Of a stretch of 64,000 nt of DNA, positions 12,507 to 64,000 are shown in pieces. A program made the translations under genes and the position numbers. Position 1 is the first letter of the stretch, and the number at the start of each line of letters is the position of its first letter. The DNA comes from Hexactinellida sp. DTS-2022 (taxonomy: Eukaryota; Porifera; Hexactinellida): contig JAPNXP010000013.1 of the NCBI GenBank assembly GCA_028753945.1, positions 3,658,001 through 3,722,000 on the forward strand, read 5' to 3'. The notes below the pieces were generated by a model that worked only from the letters and a program-made list of their open reading frames with translations, was not told the DNA's origin and ran no database searches.

Positions 12507-12541
12507 ACTGTGCCGACTATACTATAGTATAGTGGCCCAGT
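12507..12541 (+). repeat. Single box A palindrome
   Basis: One box directly after the hairpin ending at 12500, followed by the TTCTAATCTTAGTGC spacer and a TTATT run. Confidence 0.85.
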
Positions 12542-18414: not shown

Positions 18415-18530
18415 ATCAAAAATTGCAGCCTGTGCCGACAGCATGTTCCTTTGGAGGCACTATCAATAAACAACCAACAAAATATGGTGCCACCAAAGGA
18501 ACATGCGTCGGCACAGCTGCAATTTTTGAT
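18415..18530 (+). repeat. Hairpin copy with matched arm substitution
   Basis: The left arm starts ATCAAAAATTGC and the right arm ends GCAATTTTTGAT. Compared with the common ATCCAAAATTGC and GCAATTTTGGAT, one pair changed from C-G to A-T on both sides. A further difference (GCAGCC against AGCTGC) is not matched. Confidence 0.88.
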
Positions 18531-19371
18531 TTTTTTTGTATTATTATTTTTTCTTCGTAAACTGTGCCCTGGCCAGAGCTTTATAGTTGTTGGGCTGAAA
18601 CTTGGCATGTAGGTTCGGAGTCGACTTCTAATTTGCACCTGGGGTTACGATTTTTGACACATCTTTAACACCTTTCAAAATTTGTCTGGTCCATAACTAA
18701 AGAAATGTTTTACAAAACCCCCAAATTTTATTTCATATTTGGATTCACCATAAAATTCTGCGTCTGATGGGATAAGAAATCTTTCAATAAGGGGTTTAAT
18801 TTCTGCCACAAATGGGGGTTGAAATTTCTTTGTTTACTCACACTTCAATTTCAGTAAACTGTGAAATCTAATTCCATTGTTTCAACTTGTAATAATTATA
18901 TTGATTTAACTTGTTAAATCTTACTCTATTGTTTCAACTTGCGATAATTATATTGATTTAACTTAGAAATTGCAGCTGGCTTCTATTTAATTGTAGTATT
19001 ATTATTTAATGAATTAAAACAAATTAAATTAAATAAGAAATTTGTTGACTTAATTCAACTCAACCGTGGATAACATTGCTAAAATAAATAACAAATAATA
19101 TAATTTATTATCAATACATAATGGATTAATGGCATAAAACTCAAGATGGTTTATGATATAAATAAACTTCAAATTTATCTACCGTTCCTTGTGACTCGGA
19201 CCGATTAACAAATGGTTCTTGACTCCTTGAGGCGTCGATGACTTGGCGAAAAAAAATCCAAAATTGCAGCCTGTGTCGACAGCATTGGAGCCACTCTCAA
19301 TAAACACCAACGAAATATAGTGCCACCAAAGGAACATGCGTCTGCACAGGCTGCAATTTTGGATTTTTATT

Positions 19372-19406
19372 ACTGTGCCGACTATACTATTGTATAGTGG
19401 CCCAGT
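19372..19406 (+). repeat. Box A palindrome, degenerate core
   Basis: A single box with one core change (TATTGTATAG), following the shortened hairpin at 19256-19364. Confidence 0.8.
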
Positions 19407-20465
19407 TCTAATCTTACTGCCTTGGTTATTATTCTTCCGTAGCTCATCCACTGAACAGAGTTTAATTAACTAAGAGCCCAAATTTTCAGGATATGTGTCT
19501 CATGGGTTACAGATGTGCACCTTGGGGTCACGATTTTTGATTACATTGATTTGGACACATTTTTGCACCTGTTAATATTGAAACAGGAATAATATATAGT
19601 ACCCGAATATTCAATTTATATGCATACGATAGAGAATTAAATTCTACACCTTTTCACAGTGCACGAATTTTCAAATTGCGCTTCGTTTGTGCCACAATTG
19701 AGTTGCAAATTTCCTTTGTTTACTAATTAGCACTTAAAGTACTTCAGTTCTATTGAATGTGTTAAATCTAATTCTTTTGTTTCTACTTGTGATAATTATT
19801 TTGATTCAATTTGTAAATCGAGTAGGCTTCAATTTTCCAATTGAAAACCGAGATTTTACAATCTATACCAACGACTGATTTTGTGATTATATTTCCATCT
19901 TCAAGAATACTCTTGCACTATTATTATACTGACGTAATTAATTATATATTAATTCAGTCCGTATTTTGACTTATATATATGCTTCCAATTTGTGTATTAG
20001 GGGATAATTATCGAGTGTCCGAAATTGAAATATGGTAGCCAAATTAATTATATTTACTATTTTTGACAAATAATTAAGCTTAATAAATTTAAGTTGACTT
20101 TGAAATACGTGTTAATTATTAATAATTTTAATAATTACAAGCTGCTCGCTCGCGTTACGCGCGTTCTTACAACTTGCAATCGGGCCTGCGGCCCTCGCTT
20201 GTATTTAAAGCATTTACCTTTTCAAATTAAATTCCGGTTGTTTTTTAATACATACTCCAATAGACTTAATGCAAATTGAGTAATGTATGTGCATGATTGA
20301 GCTCAAACTCATTCTAGGAGCCTATAAAAATGTCGGTTATGTAATGAAAAATTAACAAAATTATATACCCCCTCCCTACATTACGATTTTGCCATTTTGT
20401 AATAAAAAAGGACGAGCTGTAACACTTACCCCTTGAGCATTACTTAAAATTCAAAGGCCCTATAC

Positions 20466-20867
20466 CAGAGATGGAACCGGTCGGGATTTTCATGACCCGA
20501 CCCGACCGGTGCAGTTGGAGATTTGATCTGACCCGACCGGCCGGTCGACCGGTCAATCATAGCTAGCAATAATTTATAGATAATAGAATAAGAATCTGCT
20601 GTAGTGTCATGTCTATAATTTAGGAATAATTATTATGGCCATAGACCATTTAAGGAAGCCTCCTTTAATACTACTAAGCTCTCAAGGGCTATTGGAGCCA
20701 GATTCAATCAAAACAAATTATGATATTATGATATCGAATAGATCATATAGATATCTCGACCGGCCGGTCAGGGTTCGACCGGCCGGTCAAAGTTCCGACC
20801 GGTACCCGACCCGACCCGACCCGACCGGTCGACCGGTGCCGGTCAGACCAGACCGGTTCCGTCTCTG
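20466..20867. mobile_element. hAT-type MITE with CCGGTC-rich interior
   Basis: Terminal inverted repeats CAGAGATGGAACCGGTC and, at the other end, its reverse complement with one change (CAGAGACGGAACCGGTC). The 8-bp direct repeat CCCTATAC flanks both sides (20458-20465, 20868-20875). The interior is rich in GACCGG and CCGACC motifs, giving a chance open frame at 20635-20922. Non-autonomous, 402 bp. Confidence 0.92.
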
Positions 20868-21571
20868 CCCTATACACAGGTTGATTATATTACGGGGAAT
20901 CATATGGGTGATATTTAGGTGACCGCTAGTGACCCACATAACAGTAATGCTATTGTTTCAGAGTAGGGCTGTGCCCCCCTAAGCTGTCTATTTATATAAA
21001 TTGAGAAATACTAATCAGCGCCTGTACTGTTGAATATTTATGCTAATTAGAACTTACAATTTTCTAGATATTAACGCATGTCCGTGTATAATAATGAACC
21101 GACTTCAAATAGAAATTAATTAATACCACTAAGGAACTGTACAACTCTGTGGACCCATAACTTTGGGATGTGGAGAAGTTATTGAATTGATCGGTAATAT
21201 TCAAATAGACACAATGGAATGTTAGAAATGTATGGGTAGTACACGGAACACATTAACTGATTGGATGAATGACTTTCCTCTCGACCAATTAAATCACAGT
21301 CTCAGATAGGCATTCTATAACGCACACTTAACTATTGGTAGGTACATTAAAATATTTTTATACCCATACCGGAAAACCCTCGAATTTAATAGGCTAAAGT
21401 TTTGTCACCTTTAGGGAAGGGGAGATGTGAATATTTTTCTTAGATATTAGAACTTGTTTTTAGTTACACTATTTCCCACCCCCCTGCCAAATTTCAAGTC
21501 TGTAGCTCTTACCTGTTCCTCATTCAATTCTGAACAAACAAACAAAACAAAAAAATCATTGTGATTTAATA

Positions 21572-22533
21572 TACAGTAAAACCTCCAATTAGGAACACTT
21601 TGGGGACTGCTGAAAAGTGTTCCTAATATGGAGGTGTTCCTTGATAAGATGTCTGCCTTTTAGGATCCTATCATAAACTTTGTAAGGTGTATGAATGTTT
21701 GTTATAAACATGCTCAAGATGTACACTAACCGGCCAAAATTATTTGAAGAGCAATAATTTGTATTCATAAATTAATGTATATAGTAGCATATTAACATTA
21801 TTAGATGTTTCAACATGGCTATTTTGATAATTTTATATGTCAATTAAAATATAATAGCGAAATTTTTGAAACTCATTAACTATATAATTAGCTAATTAAA
21901 TAAAAAATACTGATCATTAATTAAGATGCAATTAGAATATACAAGTTCTGATTGCAGATTTGAATTCCACATGGTCGAATTACTCTAAGTGCATAATTTC
22001 AAACCAATACGATTATTTTCTACTGAGATACAGCACATTTTATTAGTGCCACTTGTGCCAGAATTGGTACGTGGCAGAGACACTTATGCCAATTAATGTG
22101 CAATAGAGCCTCTGAACAACGGACACTTTGGGACCGGAGTCGTTGTCCGCTATTTAGAGGTTGCTTTTCTATTAGACATATGCTAAATTCAATCCTTCCG
22201 TGCCACGAGGGTTGTCCGTTATTTAGAGGTTGTCCGCTATTTGGAGGGACCGTTATGGGAGGCTCCACTGTATATTGGCTAAAACGACTTGAGATTAAAA
22301 CTATCCCCACAAATTATGATGAATACGAATGGTCCTTAATGAGAGGTCCATCTGAATGGTTAAGTGACATTTGGGACACAAAAAGGTGTTCCCTGTTCAC
22401 TGTAGGGAGGTGTTCCTTAATGGGAGGTAGGTATCAATGTTAAAGCATAGTAGAAAATTGGGACTTAAAAAAGTGTCCCCTAAGCAGAGTTGTTCCTTAA
22501 TTGGAGGTGTTCCCTAATGGAGGTTTTACTGTA
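21572..22533. mobile_element. Pogo/Tc1-like MITE (TACAGTAAAACCTCC ends)
   Basis: Ends are TACAGTAAAACCTCC and its inverted counterpart GGAGGTTTTACTGTA, with TA at both borders, as in pogo/Tigger-type elements. Inner inverted motifs (TTAGGAACAC, AAGTGTTCC, GGAGGTGTTCC) repeat several times near both ends. A second MITE is inserted at 22099-22272. It sits in the 5' end of Helitron-like element 4. Confidence 0.85.
22099..22272. mobile_element. MITE with GAGCCTCTGAACAACGGAC ends, copy 1
   Basis: The left end reads CAATAGAGCCTCTGAACAAC and the right end GGAGGCTCCACTGTA. Interior motifs TTGTCCG and CTATTTAGAGG recur. A second copy lies at 28327-28516. TA borders and CAGT ends suggest a pogo/Tc1-like family. 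Confidence 0.82.
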
Positions 22534-22538
22534 TATGA

Positions 22539-23057
22539 TTTAAACTTATTTGGTAAATAACATTAATCTCAGAGATGATGCAATATATAAACAAACTTCC
22601 AATTTATCTATTGATCCTTATGCCACTTAACACCTCTACAAATGGGTCTTAACACCTTGAGGTGATGATGAAATCGTCAAAAAATTGTGTTTTTAGTAAA
22701 TTTTTACAAATTTGTGAATTCTATATTTCGAATGGGTTGGTTGGTGTTTGGTGATCACCCAACGCGCACATAAAAAATGCTAACTCATCACCTATTACAT
22801 TGACTGAAACTTGAATAACTCTGAAATGAAGTGAGCTAAAACGAAACTTCCAACTCACTAAGGATCGTTGCCTTTTGAAACACCTTTCTGAAATAATTTA
22901 ACACCTTAATAGTGATGATGACATGGCGAAAAAAAATCCAAAATTGCAGCTGTGGCGACAGCTTTTTCCTTGGAGGCCCTATCCATTAACCAGCCAGTAG
23001 ACACCAAAATATTTTGCCTACATAGGGAAATGCGTCGGCACAGTTGCAATTTTGGAT
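22539..23057 (+). repeat. 3' part of the hairpin unit interrupted at 20138
   Basis: It continues the unit body after Helitron-like element 4 and ends in a hairpin at 22936-23057. The hairpin is more diverged than most: the loop is longer (CCAGCCAGTAGACACC) and the left arm lacks several bases (GACAGCTTTTTCC). A start-of-unit motif (CGCCGTAGACGTTGCCC) follows at 23088 before the next repeat cuts in. Confidence 0.88.
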
Positions 23058-31353: not shown

Positions 31354-31515
31354 GGTTTAAACCATAGACTCCTTAAGTAAAGGACTGGAACGTCGCGATC
31401 TCGGGGGTTTTAACTTGAGTCTGAGAGGCTCCAATTATAAAAATTGATAAAGCATTAAGTTTCCGGTCTCCAAATGTGATTGTTGGCATATAGGGGTAAC
31501 TTTTGGCACCCGTCA
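31354..31515. mobile_element. End of an unidentified TE (GGTTTAAACCATAGACTCC)
   Basis: About 160 bp almost identical to 61121-61209 plus 62547-62646. In both places it begins GGTTTAAACCATAGACTCC against a Harbinger transposase, but on opposite sides of the break. That fits an inserted element with long inverted ends. Here the segment is uninterrupted and provides the empty site for the hairpin unit at 61210-62546. Confidence 0.65.
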
Positions 31516-31752
31516 ACAATTTGAGGTTTTCACTCAATGTTATAGTACTATAGTTTTGTACTATAAGTGCACACTTTCACTCAATGTTATAGTACTATAG
31601 TTTTGTACTATAGTACTATAACATTGAGTGAAAGTGTGTTATAGTACTATAGTTTTTTACCTCTGTCGGACTTCCGGCCGGCCGGCCGGAAGTCCGACAG
31701 AGGTAAATTCAATAGTGTGCACTTATAGTACAAAACTATAGTACTATAACAT
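31516..31752. repeat. Fold-back region around a perfect 48-bp palindrome
   Basis: Centre 31658-31705 is a perfect palindrome: arm TACCTCTGTCGGACTTCC then a GGCCGGCCGGCC core. Outside it, TTATAGTACTATAG and its complement, and CACTTTCACTCAATG and its complement, repeat in both directions, so the whole region can fold into nested hairpins. No coding. Confidence 0.85.
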
Positions 31753-41183: not shown

Positions 41184-42036
41184 ATCCAAAATTGCAGCCT
41201 GTGCCGACGGATGTTCCTTTAGTGGCACTATATTTTGATGGTGGTTTATTGATAGTGCCTCCAAAGGAACATGCTGTCGGCACAGGCTGCAATTTTGGAT
41301 TTTTTATCTCCAAGTCATCAACGCCTCAAGGTGTCAAGAACCATTTGTTAATTGGTCCGAGTCACAAGGAACGGTAGATAAACTTGAAGTTTGTTTCTAT
41401 CATAAACCATCTTGAGTTTAATGCCATTCATTCATTATGTATTGATAATAAATTATATTATTAGTTATTTATTTTAGCAATGTTATCCACGGTTGAGTTG
41501 AGTCGAGTCAACAAATTCCATATATTATTTTATTTTATTTTATCCATTGTATAGTAATACTACAATTAAATAGAAGCCAGCTGAAATTTATAAGTTAAAT
41601 CAATATATTTATCGCAAGTTGAAACAATAGAATAGGATTTAACAAGTCAAATCAATATAATTATTACAAGTTGAAACAATAGAATTAGATTTAACAGTTT
41701 TACTGAAATTGAAGTGTGAGTAAACAAAGGAAATTTTCAACTCAATTGTGGCACAATCTAAGCCCAATTTGAAAATTCGTGCACTGTGAAAAGGTGTAGA
41801 ATTTAATTATCTATCCAAATATGTAAATATTATCAAGTTCACTATTAATTAGTTCATGTTAAGAGCCATAATTAGCTTAAATAGGTGTTAAAATTAATTG
41901 ATCAAAAATCGTAACCCCAGGTGCAAATTAGACTATAGTATAGTGGCACAGTTCTAATCTTAGTGCCTTGGTTAATAACTAACCAAGGCACTAAGATTAG
42001 AACTGTGCCACTATACTATAGTATAGTCGGCACAGT
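41184..42036 (-). mobile_element. Single hairpin unit, inverted, in a gypsy LTR
   Basis: A complete-looking unit on the minus strand: hairpin 41184-41300, short body type, box A 42002-42036. On the left it follows CTACAAAAAAA and on the right AATTATATTT, so it lies in an A-run like the copy at 61210. The start-of-unit motif (CCGTAGACGGTGCC) is missing; box A is joined straight to the GTCTAATTTGCACC part. Confidence 0.85.
41933..42024. repeat. Large palindrome of duplicated box A
   Basis: A box A with the spacer TTCTAATCTTAGTGCCTTGG is duplicated in inverted order around a 4-6-bp centre near 41979. The arms of about 43 bp are perfect complements. The inner copies read GTGGCACAGTTC instead of GTGGCCCAGT. 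Confidence 0.85.
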
Positions 42037-44708: not shown

Positions 44709-45174
44709 ACTGTGCCGACTATACTATAGTATAGTGGCCCAGTATTGGTCTTAGTGCTTTGGTTAGTTATTATTACTGTGCCGACTATACTATAGTATAG
44801 TGGCCCAGTATTGGAATCACTGCCTTTATTACTGTGCCGACTATACTATAGTATAGTGGCCCAGTATTAGAATCACTGCCTTTATTACTGTGCCGACTAT
44901 ACTATAGTATAGTGGCCCAGTATTAGAATCACTGCCTTTATTACTGTGCCGACTATACTATAGTATAGTGGCCCAGTTCTAATCTTACTGCCTTTAATAA
45001 TAATATTTATTTTTACTGTGCCGACTATACTATGGTATAGTGGCCCAGTATTGGAATCACTGCCTTTATTATTTTTACTGTGCCGACTATACTATAGTAT
45101 AGTGGCCCAGTTCTAATCTTAGTGCTTTGGTTAGTTATTACTGTGCCGACTATACTATAGTATAGTGGCCCAGT
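44709..45174 (+). repeat. Eight tandem box A palindromes
   Basis: Largest cluster in the window. Boxes start at 44709, 44775, 44831, 44887, 44943, 45015, 45077 and 45140. Spacers of both kinds alternate (GGTCTTAGTGCTTTGG, GGAATCACTGCC, TTCTAATCTTACTGCC). Box 6 has a broken core (TATGGTATAG). Confidence 0.9.
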
Positions 45175-46399
45175 TCTAATCTTACTGCCTTGGTTATTAT
45201 TATTGGTCCGTAGCCTCTCTACTGAACAGACTTATAATTACTAAGAGCCAAAATTTTCAGAATATGTGTCTCATGGGTTACAGATGTGCACCTGGGGTCA
45301 CGATTTTTTTAAACATTTTTTTGGACACATTTTTGCACCTGTTTAATATTAGAAAAAGAACAATAAATAGTGCACAAATATTTAATTTATATGCATTCGA
45401 TAGAGAATTAAATTCTACACCTTTTCACAGTGCACGAATTTTCAAATCGTACTTAGTTTGTGCCACAATTGAGTTGCAAGCTTCCTTTGTTTACTAACAC
45501 TTCAGTTCAATTGAAGTGTTAAATCGAATTCTATTGTTTCAACTTGTAATAATTATATTGATTCAACTTGTGAGATCGAGTAGGCTTCTATTTTCTAATT
45601 GAAACCTAAGATTTTACATTCCACAACAACGACAGATTAAGTGATTATATTTATTTCTGCGAGAATATTCTTGCACTGTTAATAGACAGACGTAATTAAT
45701 TATAATTAATTCAGTCAGTATATGACTTATATAGATGCTTCCAATTTGTGTATTAGGGGTTATCGAGTGTGCGGAATTGAAATTTGATAACCAAATTAAT
45801 TAATTAATTATTCATGACAAAATAATTTAACTTAATAATTGTAAGTTGACATTGAAATTGGTGTTATATTATAAATAATATTAATAATTATTTATACTAA
45901 TTAATTAAATATCATAAATCTCAGAATTCAAATAAGATAGAAACAAACTTCCAATTTATCAATTGATCCTTATGCCACGTAACACCTCTACAAATGGGTA
46001 TTGACACCTTGAGGTGATGATGACATCGTCAAAAAAATGTGTTTTTACATTTTTGTTAATTCGATATTTAAAATGGGTTAGTTGAAGTTGGGTGATGACC
46101 CAACACTCACATAAAAAATGCTGAGTCATCAGCTATTATATTCTACTCAAACTTGATTATCTCTAAAATGAAGTGAATTAAATGGAAACTTCCGCCACTC
46201 TAAGGGTCGATGCCTTCTGTAACACCTTTTAATATATTTTAACACCTTCATAGTGATGATGACATGGCGAAAAAAAAATCCAAAATTGCAGCTGTGCTGA
46301 CATCATGTCCCATTGGAGGCACTATCAATAAACCACCACCAAAATATAGTGCCACAAAAGGAACATGCGTCGGCACAGCTGCAATTTTGGATTTTTTTT

Positions 46400-46496
46400 A
46401 CTGTGCCGACTATACTATAGTATAGTGGCCCAGTTCTAATCTTACTGCCTTTAATATTATTACTGTGCCTACTATACTATAGTATAGTGGCCCAGT
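46400..46496 (+). repeat. Two tandem box A palindromes
   Basis: Boxes start at 46400 and 46462 (variant CTGTGCCTAC) after the hairpin ending at 46392. Confidence 0.85.
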
Positions 46497-49400
46497 ATTG
46501 GAATCACTGCCTTTATTATTTTTTTTATTTTTATTTTTTCTCCGTAGACGGTGCCCTGGCCAGAGCTTTATAGTTGATGGGCTGAAACTTGGCATGTAGG
46601 TGCGATGGAACCGTCTAATTTGCACCTGGGGTTACGATTTTTGATTAACAAATTTTGGACACATTTTTAACACCTTTCAAAATTTGTCTGGTCCATAACT
46701 CAAAATTCCTTTACTAAACGCCCAAATTTTATTTCATATTCGGATTCACCATAAAATTCTGCGTCTGATGGGAGAAGACATTTTTCAATAAAGTGTTTAA
46801 TTTCTGCCATAAATGGGGGTTGAAATTTCTTTGTTTACTCACACTTCAATTTCAGTAAAGTGTTAAATCTAATTCTATTGTTTCAACTTGCGATAATTAT
46901 ATTGATTTAACTTATAAATTCCAGCTGGCTACTATTTAAATATAGTATTACTATACAATGGATTAAATAAAATAATATAATATAAGGAATTTGTTGACTC
47001 AACTCAACCAACCGTGGATAACATTGCTAAAATACATTACTAGTAATACTATATTTTATTATAAATACATAATGAATGAATGGCATTAAACTCTTGATGG
47101 TTTATGATAGAAACTAACTTCAACTTTATCTACCGTTCCATGTGACTCCGACCAATTTAGAAATGGTTCTTCACACCTTGGGCGTTGATGACTTGGGAGA
47201 AAAAATCCAAAATTGCAGCCTGCGCCGACAGCATGTTCCTTTGGAGGCATTATCAATAAACAACCAACAAAATATAGTGCCACCAAAGGAACATGCGTCG
47301 GCACAGGCTGCAATTTTGGATTTTTATTAGTCCGTAGCCTCTATACTGAACAGAGTTTTACTAACTAAGAGCCCAAATTTTCAGGATATGTGTCTCATGG
47401 GTTACAGATGTGCACCTGGGGTCACGTTTTATTATCACATTTTTTTGGACACATTTTTGCACCTGTTTAATATTAGAAAAAGAACAATAAATAGTGCGCG
47501 AATATTCTATTTATATGCATTCGATAGAGAATTAAATTCTACACCTTTTCACAGTGCACGAATTTTCAAATTGTACTTAGTTTGTGCCACAATTGAGTTG
47601 CAAGTTTCCTTTGTTTACTAACACTTCAGTTCAATTGAAAGTGTTAAATCTAATTCTATTGTTTCAACTCGTTATTATTATATTGATTCAACTTGTGAGA
47701 TCGAGTAGGCTTCTATTTTCCAATTGAAAACTAAGATTCTACATTCCATAACAACGACAGATTATGTGATTATATTTCCTTCTGCAAGAATACTCTTGCA
47801 CTGTTAATATACTGACGTAATTAATAATAATTAATTAAGTCAGTATATGACTTATATAGATGCTCCCAATTTGTTTATTAGGGGTTATCGAGTGTGCGGA
47901 ATTGAAATTTGATAGCCAAATTAATTAATTAATTATTTATGACAAAATAATTAAACTTAATAAATATAAGTTGACATTGAAATTGGTGTTAAATTATAAA
48001 TATTATTAATAATTATTTATACTAATTAATTAAATATCATAAATCTCAGAGATCATAGAAGATAGAAACAAACTTTCAAATTATCAATTGGTCCTTATGG
48101 CACGTGCCACCTATACAAGTGGGTCTTGACACCTTGAGGTGATGATGACATCGTTAAAAAAATGTGTTTTTACAATTTTGCTAATTTGATATTTAAAATA
48201 GGTTAGTTGATGTTGGGTGATGACCCAACACTCACATAAAATATGCTGAATCATTAGCTATTATATTCTACTCAAACTTGAATATCTCTAAAATTATATC
48301 AACTAAATGGAAACTTCCACCACTCTAAGGGTCGATGCCTTCTGTAACACCTTTTATGAAATAATTTAACACCTTCATAGTGATGATGACATGGCGAAAA
48401 AAAATCCAAAATTGCAGCTTGTGCCGACAGCATGTTCCTTTGGAGGCACTATCAATAAACCACAACCAAAATATAGTGCCCCCCAAGGAACATGCGTCGG
48501 CACAGGCTGCAATTTTGGATTTTTTTTTTTTTTTTCTCCGTAGACGGTGCCCTGGCCAGAGCTTTATAGTTAATATGCTGAAACTTGGCATGTAGGTGCG
48601 ATGGGACCGTCTAATTTGCACCTGGGGTTACGATTTTTGATTAACAAATTTTGGACACATCTTTAACACCTTTCAAAATTTGTCTGGTCCATAACTCAAA
48701 ATATGTTTTACTAAACCCCCAAATTTTATTTCATATTTGGATTCGCCATAAAATTCTGCGTCTGATGGGAGAATAAATTTTCCAATAAAGGGGTCAATTT
48801 CTACCATAAATGGGGGTTGAAATTTCTTTGTTTACTCACACTTCAATTTCAGTAAAGTGTTAAATCTAATTCTATTGTTTCAACTTGTAATAATTATATT
48901 GATTTAACTTGTTAAATCCTACTCTAGTGATTCAACTTGCGATAATTATATTGATTTAACTTGTTAAATCCTACTCTAGTGATTCAACTTGCGATAATTA
49001 TATTGATTTAACTTATAAATTCCAGCTGGCTTCTATTTAATTCTAGCATTACTATACAATGGGTTAAATTAAATTAATTTATATAAGGAATTTGTTGACT
49101 TTACTCAACTCACCGTGGATAACATTGCTAAAATAAATAACTAATAATTTAATTTATTATCAATAAGTAATGAATGGCATTAAACTAAAGATGGTTTATG
49201 ATAGAGCCGTTAACATTTTACATTCCACAACAACGACAGATAAAGTGATTATATTTATTTCGCGAGAATATTCTTGCACAATTAATGTACTGACGTAATT
49301 TATTATAATTAATTCCTTTTGTATTTAACTTATAGACGGTTCCAATTGGATTATTGGGGTTATCGAGTGCGCTGAATTCAAATATGATAGTGAAATTCGA

Positions 49401-49876
49401 TTTAAATTAATAATAAGTGCAAATAATTGAACTTTATTTATTTTGCTGTAATAATAATAGTGTTAAATTACTAATTTATTAATTAAATATTTATACTAAT
49501 TAGCTAAATTTCATTAATCTCAGAGATGATACAAGATAGAAACAAACTTTCAATTTATCAATTGGTCCTTATGCCACGTACCACCTATACAAGTGGGTCT
49601 TGACACCTTGAGGTGATGATGACATCGTCAAAAAAAAGTATTTTTACAATTTTGTGAATTAAATAATTCGCATGGGTTGGTTGGAGTTGGGTGATTACCC
49701 AATACGTACTTTAAAAATGCTGAGTCATCACAGATTATATTCTACTGAAACCTGAATATCTCTCAAATGAAGTGAGCTAAATGGAAACTTGCACCACTCT
49801 AAGGGTCGTTGCCTACTGAAACACCTTTCTGAAATAATTTAACACCTTCATAGTGATGATGACTAGGCGAAAAAAA

Positions 49877-49993
49877 ATCCAAAATTTCAGCTTGTGCCGA
49901 CAGCATGTTCCTTTGGAGGCACTATCAATAAATCACCACCAAAATATAGTGCCACCAAAGGAATATGCGTCGGCACAGGCTGAAATTTTGGAT
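49877..49993 (+). repeat. Hairpin copy with matched arm substitution
   Basis: The left arm reads ATCCAAAATTTCAGC and the right arm GCTGAAATTTTGGAT. The usual sequence is ATTGCAGC with GCTGCAAT, so the G-C pair became T-A on both sides. A neighbouring difference (CTTGTG against CACAGG) is unmatched. Confidence 0.9.
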
Positions 49994-51984
49994 TTTTTAT
50001 TATTATTTTTTCTCCGTAGACGGTGCCCTGGCCAGAGCTTTATAGTTGATGGGCTTAAACTTTGCATGTAGGTGCGATGGGACCGTCTAATTTGCACCTG
50101 GGGTTACGATTTTTGATTAACAAATTTTTTACACATCTTTAACACCTTTCAAAATTTGTCTGGTCCATAACTCAAAATATGTTTTACTAAACCCCCAAAT
50201 TTTATTTCATATTTGGATTCGCCATAAAATTCTGCGTCTGATGGGAGAATAAATATTCCAATAAAGGGGTCAATTTCTGCCATAAATGGGGGTTGAAATT
50301 TCTTTGTTTACTCACACTTCAATTTCAGTATTGTGTTAAATCTAATTCCGTTGTTTCAACTTGTAATAATTATATTGATTTAACTTGTTAAATCCTACTC
50401 TAGTGATTCAACTTGCTATAATTATATTGATTTAACTTGTGAATTCAAGCTGGCTTCTATTTTGCAATTGAAAATTAAGATTACGAGCCCTTCGGTCTCG
50501 GTCGCTTCGCGACGGATCACTCTCTCACAAAAGTCGCTTCGCGACTTTTGTTTGTTCGTGTTAGGCACTACGCGATACAATTAACGGCCGCTTCGCGGCC
50601 TTTCCCTTCCCAAAAAGCTATAATATTACTAATGAGTTCACCTGTGGCTAGTGAATTACACACTGTGACTTAATAACGCGTGCCTAAAATTCATTTTGGG
50701 TTGTGATTACTGTAATTTGTTTGGGGAATTATGTTGAGTAAGTTATTCTCATTGCTCAATAGTTATTAATTATTAGTTAATTAATAGCTCAATAGTTCTT
50801 AAGGGTAGCTCGTTCAGCTATATTAAAGGTTAGCTTGTTAGCTCAATTAAATTGAGACATGTGGTTGGTAAATTATACGCAATTAATTATTTCAGTAAAT
50901 TGTATTGCAAAGTAATTTACTAACTCTGGGTGTAATCTCTCCATAATAATGGTTTAAAGAGGAGTTGCAAAATATTTGATTTAATAGTAATAAACATTTA
51001 TAGATCTCACCATAAACAATTCATTTTGCAGGAGCTGGGTTAGTGAATTATTTAATTTAATTGATAGCAATAATTAACATAATAAATCTCATCGTTAGGC
51101 AGAACCAAAATCATAGATTACTTAACTTAATTCATTTCTAGTAGAAATCCTAGGTTCCATTGATAGTCTTATTATAGAAGCCAATAGGTGTAATAAATAA
51201 ACAATGCATTAGGGACTCTAATATTATACTTATGTCATTGACGTAAGCTAAATACATCACGAATAGAAATAAACTGATGGAAGCCAAACTGGATTAATCA
51301 AGTATGCAATTTCGGAAATATTGTAGGTGAAGATTAAATCATAAACCTCAATATATGCAATGATGCAGCAATTGGAGGTTACATTTTTGTTATTGCCTGG
51401 CTCAGATTAAATGCGAAAATTATAAAAAATTCTAGAGACATGCAATACATTCTGTTTTATAATGTGACAAAATTATTTATCGATTGAACCAAAAGTGTAA
51501 GAGCTGAATCCAAATTAGTTCCCACGTGACGTCACATTCCCATAAATCGGAACACGTGTGTCTCATTGTATGTAGTGTTATCATCTAAAATTCTGGGCGA
51601 ATCGAATAAAAACTGAAAGAGTTATTCCCAAATATGTGCCTTTATGACGTCATAATCCCGTTATTTCGCTTAGAAAACCAATAGATCGTTGTCGCAGTAC
51701 AAAATTACCCCTGTCATAGCCTACTCTATATATGGCCTGACAGTAACCTATAAAATATGGACCAAGGATGAAGGAGAAGATGGTAATATTTATCCAACCA
51801 CAATATTTAATTTCAAAAATAATAATAATATATTAATAATCAACTACATTAATTAGAAATATTCTTGAAATATATACTACTATTGATCAGATCTTATAAT
51901 TTTTATTCCAAACTCTTCTATTGACGTACTATCCCATCCTTTTTACATTTCGCTCTGGTATTTTATTCATATTAGCTTCTATTC

Positions 51985-54132
51985 ATGCCTAACTCTTGTT
52001 CTGTCCCCGACTCCCCGGTTGCAAGCAATTACAACCCGGATGACCATGTTCCTATGTTCAAGATGTCTCAAAGTACACCAACCCTGAATCATGCCTGGAC
52101 ATGCGCTCTTCGTCGCGAGGATATCGGTGATCTGAAGTTGGTCTATGTATGTATCAACCATTTCAGAAAGAATACATAGACTACACTTTCAAAGTCCCAA
52201 AAGGAGATGGTACTTTTACTGAAGTACCGCGGGCCAAGCCAAAGCTGAAGGAAGGCGCTGTACAAGTTTACTGCCCGGCTGCCCGGCATATTACTCATCC
52301 AAACCTAACAAACGGAATCGCTTGTCATACGATGCAAAAGAGGAAGAATTGATAAACCAAACACTACAACTCAGCTTGAGATCCGAGAGTCAAGAGAAAG
52401 AGAAGTTTGTGGTCAACTCTCTACAGGACTTGAGAGATAAGTTAACCTTGATTTATTTACCTTATAGTTGGTTGGTATGGTTCCGTAATGAGAGTAACAT
52501 AACGTTTGTTCTCGCTAAAATGGCTGAAAAAAATATCTCCGTAGATTTGTACCTTGAAATCAATGCTTATTTATCCACCCCAGCCTATTTTAATGGACAG
52601 AGTATATCCGTTCCCATTGCTGCAATTAGTGACATCCGAGAAATTGAATCTATTTTGCAGGAACTTGCTTTAAAATACAACTCTAGTTCTTATTGTGATT
52701 ATCCCCTTAAGTTCGGTTGTGCATTCTTTCAAGATGTATGTCAATTATATAATTCAGAAAGAAGAAGTTTAGCCAAGTTAGCTCCTCATTTGACTATGGA
52801 GTCATGTTTTCCGTCTAGCATAGAGCGTCAAAAATGTAAAACTGGTTTTGAAAGTCGTTAACGAATTAACAATATCTGCGCTAACTATCCAGAACGAATT
52901 GCGTTATCCAGAATATAGAAAGAATACTCCGGAGTTTGTTGATACCATTCTTACTGTTTAGAAATTATTCAACGTTAACACACCATTTAAAGGAATACGT
53001 TTGAATGATAATTTCTCGAGACCTTTGACTTTTAATGACGAGCGCAGGGTTTTTTCTAGGGGGGGGGGGGCAATTGCCCCCCCTACCGGTTTTCTGCCCC
53101 TGTAGGATATTTCAGTATGCCCCCCCTTATACTCATAATCTTTCAAATTGCCCCCCCTTTCAAACAATCCTAGAAAAATCACTGGAGCGATTTCTATTTT
53201 TGACTCGTGTAGTTTTTGGTTAGATGCTTGGCAAACTTTACCAGAAAAAATTGGCAAACTGAGTAAACAAACATACACCAGTTTTAGACATGCTTGCATT
53301 GCCTTATCACAAATTACCAACCATTTGACTCAATCTTGTGGCTTTACATATGTGTTGTCCTCCTTCTACAGACGGATCCCTTGTAACACCATTTCGGTCT
53401 ATACCGTATGATGTCGGGTTCTAATTATCACATCTCCTATCTTCAAATCCATGAACCGAGCGTCGACTTAAACTTTCTAGCATATTAAACATATTTACTG
53501 ACCAACAAGACACTTCCTTTCAATCTATTCAGTCATTTGTTAAGTCATTTTCTTGTCCGTATTCCACTACTGATGGTGAATTCAATTGGAGCCATTTCTT
53601 GATAGATTCATGACCTATCAACAATTGATTGTGGTTCACAGTTGATTCAATCATTAGCCTTTATTGCAGGCTATTCTGTCCATCAGTACCTGAATCAAAC
53701 AAAACCGTGTCATGTCTGTCTACATATGCTAACACTTGATAAATAATTTCTCCTTGATTTAGACCTGGACTCTCAGTATAAACTTCTGCAGCTATCGGAC
53801 CGTGGCGGACTTAAATATCCATCTGAGCCAGTTTGGAAATCCATTCTTGTTATATGGAAGACCTTTAGTGCCATCGAAAACAATAAAGAGCTGTTGGCAA
53901 AGCTTGTAAGTGGACCTTCTAGAAAATAATATTTGAACTCGCGTTGCTGTATTTGGAAGATAGTGATAATTGTGATCCAAGTATTTGGAAGTCTACTTGT
54001 ATTAGCTGTGGTGTGTTTAGTTGGAACATCTTATCGAGGCTAGTCTTTACCGCAGCGAATTGCTTTCTTGTAAACAAAGTTAAGAATTATAACTCGCTGG
54101 TTCTTTCAAAAAGTATAGAAAGCGTAAATTAA
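51985..54132 (+). pseudogene. P/THAP9-like transposase, decayed
   Basis: The N-terminus (MPNSCSVPDSPVASNY, AWTCALRRED, VYVCINHF) follows the THAP DNA-binding domain pattern, but the second zinc-ligand cysteine appears replaced by serine. A frameshift lies near 52160. Central pieces: APHLTMESCFPSSIERQ, ELRYPEYRKNTPEFVDTIL, LFNVNTPFKGIRLNDNF, WLDAWQTLPEKIGKLSKQTY. The late part has the family signature HHFGLYRMMSGSNYHISYLQI around 53390-53455, with TAA in place of the usual acidic codon just before it. Then AFIAGYSVHQYL, CHVCLHML, SDRGGLKYPSEPVW and CISCGVF up to 54132. Several frame changes and a 140-bp insertion (53045-53184) break it. Intact relatives would bind the terminal repeats and cut DNA using GTP as cofactor. 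Confidence 0.82.
53045..53184. mobile_element. hAT-like mini-element with 5-bp target repeat
   Basis: Ends CAGGGTTTTTTCTAGG and inverted CCTAGAAAAATCACTG. Flanking repeat GAGCG (53040-53044 and 53185-53189). Poly-G then poly-C runs inside. Removing it with one repeat keeps the transposase reading frame continuous. Confidence 0.85.
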
Positions 54133-54649
54133 AGAAATTCTCTTAATTATGTGTTTACTTATTTGTATTTACCATGATTTGTATTACTCTGTTTATTCTT
54201 ATTTATATTATGTAGTTAAGTGTGTCGTGTGTCACTGCTAGAGCCAGAGAGAGAAAGAGGAGAGAGGAAGAAAGCAAATAATTGTGTAGTATTTACTGTA
54301 GCATTAATATTAAAAATTGTACTGTTTGTGTTTATTATTACTATTAAATTATGAAAATCCAATCACCCTTCTCATTACAGCTAATACTAATCACGGGCTA
54401 GCAGGGCTGAGTTATATATACGACCTAGAGATATAAAGAACTTGGTAGTTCAATATAGAAAACATTAAAAAATTAAAATTTCCCATCTTCTTGTGCATCC
54501 CTGGTATATCTACTGTCAGGCCATATATAGAGTAGGCTATGCCCCTGTATAAAAATTTTCAGCTTTCTGGGACTCGTAGTCTTTTCAATTAATTCTGGAC
54601 AAACACACAAACACACACACACACAACAATTCCGCTTTTAATATACAGA

Positions 54650-54734
54650 TATATTTCATAACAACGACATATTATGTGATTATATTTACTTCTGCGAGAA
54701 TATAATTGCACTGTTAATATACTGACGTAATTAA
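54650..54734 (+). repeat. Hairpin-unit fragment between two Helitrons
   Basis: 85 bp of unit body (TATATTTCATAACAACGACA to GACGTAATTAA) that continue from 50483 and run on to 55720. They show that elements 1 and 2 are independent insertions in one unit. Confidence 0.93.
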
Positions 54735-55719
54735 TCTATATTATTAAATCTCGATTGTTGTTTGTGTGTGTGTGTGTTTGTCCGGATTATATTAAAGTGA
54801 TGGGGGAATAGAAACCGCAATTAATATTGGGATATAAACTAACTTTCAAATGTTATAATAGGTAAACAAATGTTATAATAGGTAAACAAGTATGCTGAAC
54901 ACGAATTTCGCGTTTATAAATTTCTCATATTAATATTTGTTGTTGTTGTTTACACAAAATAGGTAAACAAATTAATGAAAATTCAAAATCAACCTAGAAG
55001 TTAGCTTCCAACGGGTATTATAGCTAAACAAGTATGCCGAACACGAATTTCGCGTTTATAAATTTCTCATATTAATATTTGTTGTTGTTGTTTACACAAA
55101 ATAGGTAAACAAATTAATGAAAATTCAAAATCAACCTAGAAGTTAGCTTCCAACGGGTATTATAGGTAAACAAGTATGCCGAACACGAATTTCGCGTTTA
55201 TAAATTCTCATATTAATATTTGTTGTTGTTGTTTACACAAAATAGGTAAACAAATTAATGAAAATTCAAAATCAACCTAGAAGTTAGCTTCCAACGGGTA
55301 TTATAGCTAAACAAGTATGCCGAACACGAATTTCGCGTTGATAAATTTCTCATATTAATATTTGTTGTTGTTGTTTACACAAAATAGGTAAACAAATTAA
55401 TGAAAATTCAAAATCAACCTAGAAGTTATCTTCCAACGGGTATTATAGGTAAACAAGTATGCCGAACACGAATTTCGCGTATATAAATTTCTCATATTAA
55501 TATTTGTTGTTGTTGTTTACACAAAATAGGTAAACAAATTAATCAGATTCAAAATCAAGCTAGAAGTTAGCTTTCAATGGGTATTATAAGTATATAACTA
55601 TGACAAATATTACTAACTTTGTAATCAAATGTTTAGTGAGGAGTAAGGCCGCGTAGCGGCCGTTAACTTGAGGTGCGTAGCACCGATCTGTCGCAAAGCG
55701 ACCGAGACCGAAGGGCTCG
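54735..55719 (+). mobile_element. Helitron-like element 2
   Basis: Starts TCTATATTATTAAATCTCG after A, then a TG-rich tract and TTGTCCGGATTA. Ends with GGCCGCGTAGCGGCC, a TGCGTAGCACC stem, GACCGAGACCGAAGGGCTCG, then T. The flanks join to restore ATTAATTATAAATAATTC of the unit. The interior is mostly a 142-bp tandem repeat. Non-autonomous, 985 bp. Confidence 0.85.
54880..55590 (+). repeat. 142-bp tandem repeat inside Helitron 2
   Basis: Five copies with starts of AAGTATGC(C/T)GAACACG at about 54889, 55030, 55172, 55313 and 55455, giving 141-142-bp spacing. Each has TTGTTGTTGTTTACAC and AAAATCAACCTAGAAG. Confidence 0.92.
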
Positions 55720-58700
55720 TTATAAATAATTCAGTTTGTATTTAACTTATATAGAAGCTTCCAATTTGTATATTAGAGGTTATCGAGTGTGCGGAATTGA
55801 AATTTGATAGATAAATTAATTAATTAATTATTTATGACAAAATAATTGAACTTAATAATTGTATGTTGACATTGAAATTGGTGTCATATTATAAATAATA
55901 TTAATAATTATTTATACTAATTAATTAAATATCATAAATCTCAGAGATCATAGAAGATAGAAACAAACTTTCAATATATCAATTGGTCCTTATGACACGT
56001 GCCACCTATACAAGTGGGTCTTGACACCTTGAGGTGATGATGACATCGTTAAAAAAATGTGTTTTTACAATTTTGTTAATTCGAGATTTAAAATGGGTTA
56101 GTTAATGTTGGTTGATGACCCAACACCCACTTTAAAAATGCTGAGTCATTACAGATTATATTCTACTGAAACTTGAATATCTCTTTAATGAAGTGAGCTG
56201 AATGGAAACTTCCACCACTCTAAAGGGTCGTTGCCTTCTGAAACACCTTTCTGAAATAATTTAACACCTTCATAGTGATGATGACATGGCGAAAAAAAAA
56301 TCCAAAATTGCAGCCTGTGCCGACAGCATGTTCCTTTTGAGGCACTATCAATAAACCAACAACAAAATATAGTGCCACCAAAGGATCATGCGTCGGCACA
56401 GGCTGCAATTTTGGATTTTTTTATTTTTATTATTATTATTTTTTCTCCGTAGACGGTGCCCTGGCCAGAGCTTTGGAGTTGATGGGCTAAAACTTGGCAT
56501 GTAGGTGCGTATGGACCGTCTAATTTGCACCTGGGGTTACGATTTTTTATTAACACATTTTGGACACATTTTTAACACCTTTCAAAATTTGTCTGGTCCA
56601 TAACTGAAAAAATGTTTTACTAAACCCCCAAATTTTATTTCATATTTGGATTCACCATAAAATTCTGCGTCTGATGGGAGAAGAAATCTTTCAATAAAGG
56701 GGTCAATTTCTGCCATAAATGGGGTTTGAAGTTTCTTTGTTTACTCACACTTCAATTTCAGTAAACTGTGAAATCTAATTCCATTGTTTCAACTTGTAAT
56801 AATTATATTGATTTAACTTGTTAAATCCTACTCTAGTGATTCAACTTGCGATAATTATATTGATTTAACTTAGAAATTCCATCTGGCTTCTATTTAATTC
56901 AAATATTACTATACAATGGATTAAATAAATATTATAATATAAGGAATTTGTTGACTAAATTCAACTTAACCGTGGATAACATTGCTAAAATAAATAACTA
57001 ATACTATAATTTATTAACAATAAATATTGAATGATTGGCTTTAAACTCAAGATGGTTTATGATAGAACTAACTGTTAAGATTTTACAATCCACAACAACG
57101 ACAGATTAAGTGAATATATTTATTTCGGCGAGAATATTCTTGCACAATTAATGTACTGACGTAATTAATTATAATTAATTCCTTTTGTATTTAACTTATA
57201 GACGGTTCCAATTGGATTATTGGGGTTATCGAGTGCGTGGAATTCAAACATTATAGTGAAATTCAATTTAAATTAATAATAATTGGAAATAATTGAACTT
57301 AATTTATTTTGCTGTATATAATAATGGTGTTAAATAATTAATAAATTAATTAAATTTTTATACTAATTAGCTAAATTTCATTAATCTCAGAGATGATACT
57401 AGATAGAAACAAACTTTCAATTTATCAATTGGTCCTTATGCCAGGTACCACCTATACAAGTGGGTCTTGACACCTTGAGGTGATGATGACATCGTTAAAA
57501 AAATGTATTTTTACAATTTTTTTAATTCGACATTTAAAATGGGTTAGTTGGTGTTGGGTGATGACCCAACGCACACATAAAAAATGCTGAGTCATCATCT
57601 ATTATATTCTACCCAAACTTGAATATCTCTAAAATTATATGAACTAAATGGAAACTTCCACCACTCTAAGGGTCGATGCCTTCTGTAACACCTTTTTGAA
57701 ATAATTTAACACCTTCATAGTGATGATGACATGGCGAAAAAAAAATCCAAAATTGCAGCCTGCGCCGACAGCATGTTCTTTTGGAGGCACTATAAATAAA
57801 CAACCAACAAAATATAGTGCCACCAAAGGAACATGCGTCGGCACAGGCTGCAATTTTGGATTTTTATTATTATTATTTTTATTTTATTTTTTGTATTTCT
57901 CCGTAGCAGGTGCCCTGGCCACACCTGTATACATTGACGGCTGAAACTTGGCATGTAGTTGCGGAGGGACCGTCTAATTTGCACCTGGGGTTACGAATTT
58001 CTATTAAGAAATTTTTGACACATCTTTAACACCTTTCAAAATTTGTCTGGTCCATAACTCAAAATATGTTTTAATAAACCCCCAAATTTTATTTCATATT
58101 TAGATTCATCTTAAAATTCTGCGTCTGATGGGAGAAGAAAATTTTCAACAAAGGGTTTAATTTCTGCCATTAATGGGGGTTAAAATTTCTTTGTTTACTC
58201 ACACTACAATTTCAGTAAAACTGTTAAATCCTACTCTATTGTTTCTACTTGCGATAATTATATTTATTTAACTTATAAATTCCAGCTGGCTTCTATTTAA
58301 TTGTAGTATTACTAGACAATGGATAAAATAAAATAATATAATAATAGGAATTTGTTGACTCAACTCAACCAACCGTGGATAACATTGCTAAAATAAATTA
58401 CTACTAATATATTTTATTATCAATACAAAATGAATGAATGGCAATAAACTCTAGATGGTTTATGATAGAAACAAACTTCAAATTCAACAATCGTTCATTG
58501 TGACTCGGACCAATTAACAAATGGTTCTTCACACCTTGGTCGTTGATGACTTAGCGAAAAAAATCCACAATTGCACCCTGCGCCGACAGCATGTTCTTTT
58601 GGAGGCACTATCAATAAACAACCAACAAAATATAGTGCCACCAAAGGAACATGCGTCGGCACAGGCTGCAATTTTGGATTTTTTTATTTATTTTTTCTAC

Positions 58701-59072
58701 GTAGACGGTGCCCTGGCCACACCTTTGTAGAACAAGTCTTGAAACTTGGCATGTAGGTGCGGTGTTACCGTCTAATTTGCACCTGGGGTTACGATTTCGG
58801 ATTAACAAATTTTGGACACCTTTTTAACACCATTAAAATATTTTCTCGTCCATGACTCAAAAAATGTTACACTCAAGTTGTCAACCACCAATTTTTATTT
58901 CACCATTGGATCCACCATAAAGTTTTGGGTCAATTGGGAGAGGACAGTTTTTAAAAAAATCCAAAATTGCAGTTGTGGCGACAGCATTTCCTTTGGAGGC
59001 ACTATCAATAAACCACCACCAAAATATAGTGCCACCAAAGGAACATGAGTCGGCACAGCTGCAATTTTGGAT
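55720..59072 (+). repeat. Hairpin-unit array, block 2, right part
   Basis: Continues the unit broken at 50483. Hairpins at 56300-56416, 57745-57861, 58563-58679 and 58959-59072. The last unit is only about 390 bp: the hairpin is joined early to the body (GGAGAGGACAGTTTTTAAAA). After TTTTGGATTTTA the Harbinger sequence begins. Confidence 0.92.
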
Positions 59073-61027: not shown

Positions 61028-61208
61028 ATACAAGCTATTTGTGACCACGAATTTCGCTTCATTGATGCTGTCGTTAAGTGGCCCGGCAGCACTCATGATG
61101 CGTTTATATGGCGACAATTGGGTTTAAACCATAGACTCCTTAAGATAAGGACTGGAACGTCGCGATCTCGGGGTTTTTAACTTGAGTCTGAGAGGCTCCA
61201 ATTATAAA

Positions 61209-61324
61209 ATCCAAAATTGCACCCTGTGCCGACGCATGTTCCTTTGGTGGCACTATATTTTATTGGTTGGTTATTGATAGTGCCTCCAAAGGAGCATGCT
61301 GTCAGACAGGGTGCAATTTTGGAT
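61209..61324 (-). repeat. Inverted hairpin with matched arm change
   Basis: The outer stem reads TTGCACCCTGT and ACAGGGTGCAA, where most copies have TTGCAGCCTGT and ACAGGCTGCAA. The same pair is swapped on both arms. A nearby right-arm change (GTCAGACAGG) is not matched. Confidence 0.88.
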
Positions 61325-62546
61325 TTTTTTTCGCCCAGTCATCATCACTATGAAGGTGCTAAATTATTTCAGAAAGGTGTTTCAGAAGGCAACGACCCTT
61401 TAGAGTGGTGGAAGTTTCCATTCAGCTCACTTCATTAAAGAGATATTCTAGTTTCAGTAGAATATAATCTGTAATGACTCAGCATTTTTTAAGTGGGTGT
61501 TGGGTCATCAACCAACATTAACTAACCCATTTTAAATATCGAATTAACAAAATTGTAAAAACACATTTTTTTAACGATGTCATCATCACCTAAAGGTGTC
61601 AAGACCCACTTGTATAGGTGGCACGTGTCATAAGGACCAATTGATATATTGAAAGTTTGTTTCTATCTTCTATGATCTCTGAGATTTATGATATTTAATT
61701 AATTAGTATAAATAATTATTAATATTATTTATAATATGACACCAATTTCAATGTCAACATACAATTATTAAGTTCAATTATTTTGTCATAAATAATTAAT
61801 TAATTAATTTATCTATCAAATTTCAATTCCGCACACTCGATAACCTCTAATATACAAATTGGAAGCTTCTATATAAGTTAAATACAAACTGAATTATTTA
61901 TAATTAATTACGTCAGTATATTAACAGTGCAATTATATTCTCGCAGAAGTAAATATAATCACATAATATGTCGTTGTTATGAAATATATAATCTTAATTT
62001 TCAATTGCAAAATAGAAGCCAGCTTGAATTCACAAGTTAAATCAATATAATTATAGCAAGTTGAATCACTAGAGTAGGATTTAACAAGTTAAATCAATAT
62101 AATTATTACAAGTTGAAACAATGGAATTAGATTTAACACTTTACTGAAACTGAAGTGTGAGTAAACAAAGAAATTTAGGCCCCCATTTGTGGCAGAAATT
62201 AAACCCCATATTGAAAGATTTCTTCTCCCATCAGACGCAGAATTTTACGGTGAAACCAAATATGAAATAAAATTTGCGGGTTTAGTAAAACATATTTTGA
62301 GTTATGGACCAGACAAATTTTGAAAGGTGTTAAAGATGTGTCCAAAATTTGTTAATAAAAAATCGTAACCCCAGGTGCAAATTAGACGGTCCCATCGCAC
62401 CTACATGCCAAGTTTCAGCCCATCAACAATTAAGCTCTGGCCATTGCACCGTCTACGGAGAAAAAAAAAAAAAATAATAAAAATAATAATAATAAAGGCA
62501 GTGATTCCAATACTGGGCCACTATACTATAGTATAGTCGGCACAGT
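61210..62546 (-). mobile_element. Hairpin unit with resolved insertion site
   Basis: A complete 1337-bp unit on the minus strand, from the hairpin end TCCAAAATTGC to box A at 62512-62546 (GTCGGCACAGT). It interrupts CTCCAATTATAAAA / AAAAATTGAAAAAGC; the uninterrupted relative at 31437 reads CCAATTATAAAAATTGATAA. The added bases are the unit plus up to four A residues. This defines the ends of the element and shows insertion into an A-run. Confidence 0.88.
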
Positions 62547-62884
62547 AAAAATTGAAAAAGCATTAGGTTTCCGGTTTCCAAATGTGATTTTTGGCATATA
62601 GGGGTAACTTTTGGCACCCGTCAACAATTTGAGGTTTTCACTCAAAATTTCTCTCACCTCGACAAGTTATTACGTCATTGTCACATTTCGAGAACCCTAA
62701 AAAGTCACTTAATCGCACATAATTCGCGCCTTTTAAGAGATAAAAATCTGAAAATTTAATAGAATTCGCCTACTAATCGGAAATCAGTGTCATTTCACCT
62801 ACTCATTCTTCAAATGAGATTTGTTTTTTAGCATGTATTTTAAGGTATCTCAATTTTGTTATTGATATGTGTAGAACAACAACA

Positions 62885-64000
62885 AATAATTATATTGATT
62901 TAACTTGTTAAATCCTACTCTAGTGATTCAACTTGCGATAATTATATTGATTCAACTTATAAATTCCAGCTGGCTTCTATTTAATTGTAGCATTACTATA
63001 CAATGGATTAAATTAAATTAATTTATATAAGGAATTTGTTGACTTTACTCAACTCACCGTGGATAACATTGCTAAAAAAAATAACTAATAATTTAATATA
63101 TTATCAATAAGTAATGAATGAATGGCATTAAACTAAAGATGGTTTATGATAGAACCGTTAAGATTTTACATTCCACAACGACAGATTAAGTGATTATATT
63201 TATTTCGGCTAGAATATTCTTGCACAATTAATGTACTGACGTAATTTATTATAATTAATTCCTTTTGTATTTAACTTAAGAAGTTTCCAATTGGATTAGT
63301 GGGGTTATCGAGTGCGCTGAATTCAAATATGATAGTGAAATTCGATTTAAATTAATAATAAGTGCAAATATTTGAACTTTATTTATTTTGCTGTACATAA
63401 TAATGGTGTTAAATTATTAATTTATTAATTAATATTTATACTAATTAGCTAAATTTCATTAATCTCAGAGATGATACAAGATAAAAACAAACTTTCAATT
63501 TATCAATTGGTCCTTATGCCACGTACCACCTATACAAGTGGGTCTTGACACCTTGAGGTGATGATGACATCGTCAAAAAAATGTATTTTTACAATTTTGT
63601 GAATTAAATAATTTGCATTGGCTGGTTGGAGTTGGGTGAATACCCAACACGCACTTTAAAAATGCTGAGTCATCACAGATTATATTCTACTGAAACCTGA
63701 ATATCTCTCAAATGCAGTGAGCTAAATTGAAACTTCCACCACTCTAAGGTTCGTTGCCTACTGAAACACCTTTCAGAAATAGTTTAACACCTTCATAGTG
63801 ATGATGACTAGGCAAAAAAAATCCAAAATTGCAGCTTGTGCCGACAGCATGTTCCTTTGGAGGCACTATCAATGAACCACTACCAAAATATAGTGCCATC
63901 AAAGGAACATGCGTCGGCACAGGCTGCAATTTTGGATTTTATTTTCATTTTTTTTTTCTCCGTAGACGGTGCCCTGGCCAGAGCTTTATAGTTGATGGGC
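62885..64000 (+). repeat. Hairpin-unit array, block 3 (runs off the window)
   Basis: Starts in the middle of a unit body (AAATAATTATATTGATTTAAC) after unrelated sequence, so its 5' part is truncated. Hairpin 63821-63937 follows; the next unit start (CTCCGTAGACGGTGCCC) is at 63958. Confidence 0.9.

Follow-up and report, generated by a model that had tools for sequence, protein, structure and literature searches.

A mobile unit with filled and empty sites in one window

The window, a stretch of 64,000 nucleotides (C5:3658001-3722000) from a genome searched as 112.4 Mb in 18 contigs, contains single copies of a repeated unit, arrays composed of the same hairpins and boxes, and a host repeat that is interrupted by one copy of the unit. 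The features are listed with coordinates, strand where assigned, and the evidence in brackets.

61210..62546, minus strand: inserted unit of 1337 bp, very probably a non-autonomous Helentron (HINE); 5' end at 62546, 3' end at 61210 (empty/filled comparison)
62512..62546, minus strand: box A, the 5'-terminal palindrome with inward motif CTGTGCCGAC (sequence, 21-mer count)
62461..62496, minus strand: A/T-rich linker between body and box A, a T-run on the element strand and the proposed self-target (sequence, array joints)
61210..61323, minus strand: 3'-terminal hairpin of ~115 bp with the same inward motif (DNA fold)
62032..62138, no strand: internal 52-bp tandem repeat, 2.1 copies (Tandem Repeats Finder)
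61118..61209, no strand: left half of the interrupted host repeat, probably the end of another, inverted-repeat element (genome search, flank alignment)
62547..62764, no strand: right half of the interrupted host repeat (flank alignment)
31354..31537, no strand: empty site, an uninterrupted paralog of the host repeat (genome search, alignment)
41185..42036, minus strand: second single copy, with one hairpin and one box A, in an A/T run (end letters)
1..23056, plus strand: block 1 array, which extends leftward as far as C5:3649936 or beyond; 22 hairpins and 19 boxes when the 9 kb to the left is counted
44709..59071, plus strand: block 2, a whole array of 14.4 kb at one T-run, with 8 hairpins and 10 boxes (joined-flank matches, token order)
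62885..64000, plus strand: start of the next array, which leaves the window (sequence comparison)

As the preliminary description of this DNA had claimed, filled and empty sites are both present in the window: exactly one unit stands between the two halves of the host repeat, and the 31354 copy is continuous. The flanks had been described as equal to 31354-31515; the halves do match, but at an identity of about 96% (96.6% over 89 bp for 61121-61209 and 96.0% over 100 bp for 62546-62645 against its continuation), and the match extends beyond 31515 to 31537. Comparison with other copies places the host repeat at about 61118-61209 and 62546-62764. The borders of the unit, where A residues alone had been reported, indeed consist only of A's, the left border reading ..ATTATAAAA followed by TCCAAAATTG and the right border GGCACAGT followed by AAAAATTGAAAAAG, while the uninterrupted site of the host repeat reads ..ATTATAAAAATTGATAAAGC. 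In the fetched loci and the window, the letters of the empty site were AAAAATTGATAAA in 17 of 24 distinct contexts and one-base variants in the other 7, a count obtained with a search pattern that matches empty sites only and is thus uninformative on the number of filled sites. The host repeat in its continuous form (162 bp) was used to search the genome, and 40 of 1314 candidates were scored; 41 of the 42 matches listed span the junction, the 31354 copy included, and the matches were spread over many contigs. Because these matches run uninterrupted across the site, the empty state of the host repeat is ancestral, and the interruption pattern exceeds chance. The reading that the 31354 copy is a precise deletion product and that transposition is unneeded, which the preliminary description had named as a danger to its own model, is refuted by these many dispersed uninterrupted copies; nothing was found in its favour, and we consider its probability negligible.

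Since at least 10 inverted pairs within 1.6 kb occur among the host-repeat matches, this repeat probably forms the terminal inverted repeats of a different element. Just to the left of the host repeat, at 61078-61122, 14 protein letters are legible in the sequence by eye, presumably a Harbinger-type transposase motif. The empty site is adjoined at 31540-31700 by nested palindromes with a GGCCGGCC core.

The two ends of the unit

The left end of the unit is a hairpin of ~115 bp that starts TCCAAAATTGCACCCTGTGCCGAC and folds as DNA at -43.5 kcal/mol (z -12.1), and box A, at the right end, is an imperfect palindrome whose last letters are GTCGGCACAGT (fold z -5.2). An inward-pointing motif, CTGTGCCGAC, is separated from the box A end by 1 base and from the hairpin end by 14, and this 10-bp inverted motif is the only sequence common to the two ends. 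Read on the minus strand, a reading that goes beyond the preliminary description, the element opens with box A, preceded by T's, and closes with the hairpin, followed by T's; the element strand starts ACTGTGCC after the T's and finishes GGA before the T's. Covariation among the 26 window hairpins gave no overall support for the fold (term +0.27), with a two-sided, pair-keeping change at 4 of 34 pairs, in one sequence each.

Genome-wide, the 21-mer of box A has 5623 exact occurrences and the 33-mer of the hairpin 3563 (with up to 2 mismatches), the reversed-pattern control yielding 0 in both cases. Near-identical copies of the window unit were detected at C12:4531457 (99.55% over 1337 bp), C15:3011817 (99.46% over 1287 bp) and C15:3131122 (99.61% over 1281 bp). 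The fetched sequence contains 15 terminal boxes, of which 14 have the intact end and are followed by AA (14 of 14), the fifteenth being a chimeric joint, although some of these loci had been pre-selected with one trailing A through the box A search pattern. The chimeric joint, at L079:3422-3457, passes from a hairpin arm into box A at the common GTGCCGAC motif, as if the two ends had recombined. Other families seem to share the box A 5' end. At L063, L065 and L049, box A ends stand on bodies that are unrelated, and the sequence fetched there contains no match to the hairpin.

Single copies and whole arrays at T-runs

Uninterrupted paralogs were found for four of the six sites tested, namely two of the four single copies and both whole arrays. 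For the single copy L064 (C1:927208-928703), 3 matches span the joined flanks; the 2 that were read have GAATGAAAAAATGGG, compared with eight and five A's at the filled site. The joined flanks of block 2 are spanned in 8 of 40 matches (40 of 197 candidates scored), and the 7 of these 8 paralogs that were fetched are all continuous, with TTTT at the site in 6. For the array at C15:3010237-3014542, the joined flanks are spanned in 3 of 5 matches, judged from the alignments, the best having 94% identity over the whole 179-bp query. No uninterrupted paralog of L042 or of 41185-42036 was present among the matches listed (40 of 1698 candidates scored). The latter copy, given previously as 41184-42036, has seven A's at its left border and AATTATATTT at its right, and the left edge of block 2 at 44709 reads TTTTT followed by ACTGTGCC, so the letters agree with the A/T runs reported there.

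The net homopolymer gain was 4 bp at the 61210 unit, 7 bp at L064 and 5 bp at block 2, and nothing but homopolymer was gained. Because this gain varies among the three sites read, there is no fixed target duplication, and the limit of 4 bp given in the preliminary description does not hold. The same ambiguity and a variable number of T's are reported for HINEs in PMC4067079. Single copies and whole arrays are insertions at T-runs with fixed ends, box A and the hairpin; the mobility of the unit, its insertion into A/T runs and the nature of its termini thus stand as first described, and the satellite blocks, which had not been viewed in this way, are themselves single-site insertions.

Coding partners and family assignment

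The genome contains at least 151 Helitron_like_N matches, which fall broadly into two score groups. A coding copy on contig C8, from the group at ~104 bits, has Helitron_like_N, PIF1, UvrD_C_2 and Exo_endo_phos matches above the Pfam cut-offs and OTU just below, with Rep, PIF1 helicase and a fused endonuclease in one frame and a DUF6570 match in a second. Its Rep region reads SPHVHSLLW, presumably an HUH-type motif. Upstream of this copy there is a match to unit positions 800-1268 (91%), directly followed by the next hairpin. As a complete element the C8 copy was rejected: no hairpin end was found on its 3' side within C8:1586000-1599000, and its 5' side runs boxless into the next hairpin. A dispersed element with inverted ends, L078:1-2107, is apparently inserted in the C8 Helentron; it behaves as a separate insertion, since position 2107 is where the matches of other copies either stop or start.

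As the C8 copy lacks complete ends, the two-ended coding example was taken from contig C12. Like the unit, this element of ~11.2 kb (C12:2809558-2820755) is bounded by a hairpin end (L079:4759, C12:2809558) and a box A end (L080:206, C12:2820755), and between them lie a Helitron Rep match and an open frame of 1698 aa on the minus strand. Both termini are thus common to the non-autonomous unit and a coding element, and the orientation agrees, with box A 5', then the genes, and the hairpin 3'. The hairpin ends are 92% identical over 135 bp and the box A ends 80% over unit positions 1115-1337. The element was read at both ends and over the first 481 bp at the left, where the unit matches only at 1-135 (92%), 357-520 (72%) and ~814-896 (87%); as unit positions 136-788 have no full match in those 481 bp, we claim kinship for the ends and not an origin by internal deletion. 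The family at ~220 bits (L009-L016) was also considered as a partner and set aside, as no unit ends were found in eight fetched stretches of 3.5 kb, a scope that leaves room for ends further out; the ~104-bit family gave the match. Copies of the ~220-bit family align with one another at offsets of ~69 bp, that is, they contain internal tandem repeats.

The preliminary description knew of no family with these termini. We find that termini, target and coding partner fit the Helentron/Helitron2 group: a short inverted motif is present at both ends in asymmetric positions, and at the three sites read the target is T-rich with no duplication beyond T's, as in Helentrons and HINEs. The long 3' hairpin is unusual, for no separate short palindrome follows the 3' motif, which lies within the terminal hairpin of ~115 bp. 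The 5'-TC and 3'-CTRR ends and the insertion between A and T that mark a canonical Helitron (Helitron1) were not found. A cut-and-paste or foldback (MITE-like) transposon with hairpin ends would account for the long terminal hairpin and for the 10-bp inverted motif shared by the ends, yet such an element should have a fixed-length duplication and long terminal inverted repeats; the three sites read show no fixed-length duplication, the ends have nothing beyond that motif in common, and a Helitron Rep frame lies between the same pair of ends at C12, so that we regard this alternative as very improbable. Instead, the 61210-62546 unit is highly likely to belong to the HINEs, the non-autonomous Helentrons of the Helitron2 group, with the minus strand as its element strand.

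By analogy with the known family, we infer rolling-circle transposition of the unit. A Rep protein would nick at the T-run adjoining box A, one strand would be peeled off and copied with the 3' hairpin serving as the stop mark, and the strand or its circle would then join a new T-run, with no genuine duplication of the target.

Order of hairpins and boxes in the arrays

Single elements (61210, 41185 and L064) have one hairpin and one box each, and the C12 element has one box at the box A end that was read; L042 has one hairpin and two boxes. In the two C5 blocks (the window and 9 kb to the left, block 1 being incomplete and block 2 complete) there are 30 hairpins and 29 boxes, but only 10 of the 29 boxes come right after a hairpin token, the other 19 following another box, and 19 hairpins follow a hairpin without an intervening box. 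Throughout the array sequence examined, 40 of 64 hairpin starts come after a boxless body, 16 after a box and 8 after neither, all 8 of the last being preceded by at least 4 A's. At the joints the linker is divided, its left part standing at body-to-hairpin joints and its right part at box-to-box joints. The complete C15 array consists of three bodies and then three boxes. Its middle body shares 99.5% identity with the window unit across positions 1-1287, and its middle box has the window unit's GATTCCAAT, flanked by two GATTCTAAT boxes; the subtype of the middle box is the one known for the middle body, an agreement that could be luck with two common variants.

Units 99.5-99.6% identical to the window unit occur in three array stretches on two contigs, and because they stand among pieces of 84-94% identity, the sequences suggest that they arrived separately, a pattern that gene conversion could mimic. 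Local duplication also appears to act, since the neighbouring units 14628-15471 and 15471-16314 are the same at all but one of 843 bases whereas the adjacent 13774-14628 is 83% identical; by this likeness the pair is best read as a recent local duplication. In block 2, one unit contains a 142-bp tandem repeat of 5.1 copies at 54874-55592, with unit positions ~694 and ~690 on either side.

We propose, with about an even chance of being right, that the arrays are pile-ups formed by orientation-locked nested self-insertion of Helentron-type elements. Each element would bring its own preferred target, the T-run between body and box A, and newcomers would for this reason land inside older copies, in the same orientation, to give body, new element, box. 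The older copy's box would be pushed outward, leaving runs of boxless bodies and box clusters, and local duplication would add further copies. Insertion of whole elements into the linker of an older element would produce the layout observed. If so, an array is a nested record in which bodies are opened and boxes closed, and the order of insertion could be read from it.

Several counts bear on nesting. In block 1 the running order never falls below zero, whereas block 2 finishes at -2; its two surplus boxes count against nesting, and so do the two boxes beside the one hairpin of L042 and the near-identical 843-bp pair. Body-to-box adjacencies are fewer than in shuffled orders in block 2 (2 compared with a mean of 4.4, P 0.03) and not clearly fewer in block 1 (8 compared with 10.2, P 0.15). 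Types of adjacent bodies and boxes (n = 26) were 14 alpha-i, 7 beta-ii, 1 beta-iii, 3 alpha-ii and 1 unclassified, so pairing is not strict, and when extra boxes were paired with boxless bodies by the stack rule, 11 of 18 matched in type, which is not significant (p about 0.15, hand calculation). For these type counts, tokens more than 4500 bases apart had been placed in separate groups, which cuts block 2. As many array pieces are incomplete, their unmatched boxes say nothing on nesting, and loci L047-L076, having been chosen through the box A search, are biased towards boxes.

The same family could have built its arrays in other ways. Each array may be a rolling-circle concatemer inserted once, with box clusters arising by slippage or alternative 5' nicking, and the presence of whole arrays at single T-runs (block 2 and the C15 array), the near-identical 843-bp neighbours and the ascription of tandem Helitrons to rolling-circle replication in PMC12628747 and PMC4067079 speak for it. 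Such a concatemer predicts alternating bodies and boxes and similar units, whereas most boxes come after a box, box subtypes are mixed within clusters and units almost identical to the window unit stand among far more divergent ones; we hold this origin to be possible but rather unlikely. The arrays might also have grown mainly by unequal exchange among a few founder units, independently of transposition. The 843-bp pair beside its divergent neighbour is what such exchange would leave, but exchange alone accounts neither for the arrival of near-identical units at three places on two contigs nor for boxless bodies accompanied by about as many separate boxes, and we consider it unlikely and somewhat more doubtful than the concatemer. 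Nested self-insertion, as proposed above, would generate separated bodies and boxes at one site, and the internal order of single-site satellite blocks, the notable point here, suggests repeated self-insertion.

Relation to known systems

The case bears on how transposons are converted into satellite DNA, for here one genome has the repeat unit, its single-copy mobile form, coding relatives, empty sites and whole arrays at single empty sites. By the order of hairpins and boxes, three routes to an array can be tested directly against one another: rolling-circle concatemers, unequal exchange and repeated self-insertion. The comparisons that follow relate to the accessible portions of the cited papers. 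Helentrons and HINE/DINE-1 elements (PMC4067079) likewise have a Rep/PIF1 helicase protein with a fused endonuclease, inverted motifs near both ends, palindromic ends, a T-rich target with a variable number of T's and no target duplication, internal tandem repeats and tandem clusters. At the Helentron 3' end described there, the motif lies 38-60 bp from the end and is followed by a short palindrome, whereas here one terminal hairpin of ~115 bp contains it; a further difference is that body and 5' box are separate in our arrays. Helitron2 (PMC3627910) also has hairpins at both ends, an asymmetric inverted motif in the 5' hairpin near the 5' end and insertion between TTTT and T, but differs in that our partner protein has an endonuclease and no separate hairpin lies downstream of our 3' motif.

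FoHeli elements of Fusarium oxysporum (PMC5148889) are similar in their non-canonical termini, hairpins, joined-end evidence and rare tandem insertions, but are in that account mostly single elements, with no box-cluster arrays described. HINE-borne satellites of the Pacific oyster (PMC7492417) likewise place satellite-like DNA into T-rich sites with joined-flank empty sites, although the satellite there is the internal repeat of one element, whereas in our arrays a whole element is repeated. Plant centromeric arrays (Xiong et al. 2016, via PMC12628747) also consist of tandem Helitron copies, but have many 5' ends and a single 3' end, whereas both ends are about equal in number and separated here. 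Rolling-circle Helitron arrays, nested insertions and transposon dimers arising through insertion-site preference are already described in these papers taken as a set (PMC4067079, PMC5148889, PMC3627910, PMC7492417, PMC12628747); a search of the open-access literature found no account of arrays in which boxless Helentron bodies and clusters of 5' boxes stand apart at a single empty site.

Other features of the window

A tandem array with a period of 74/148 bp occupies 38333-38937. On the minus strand at 25207-27795 there is a frame of 862 aa that encodes a reverse transcriptase domain and, at its N terminus, a PHD finger, an unusual retroelement protein.
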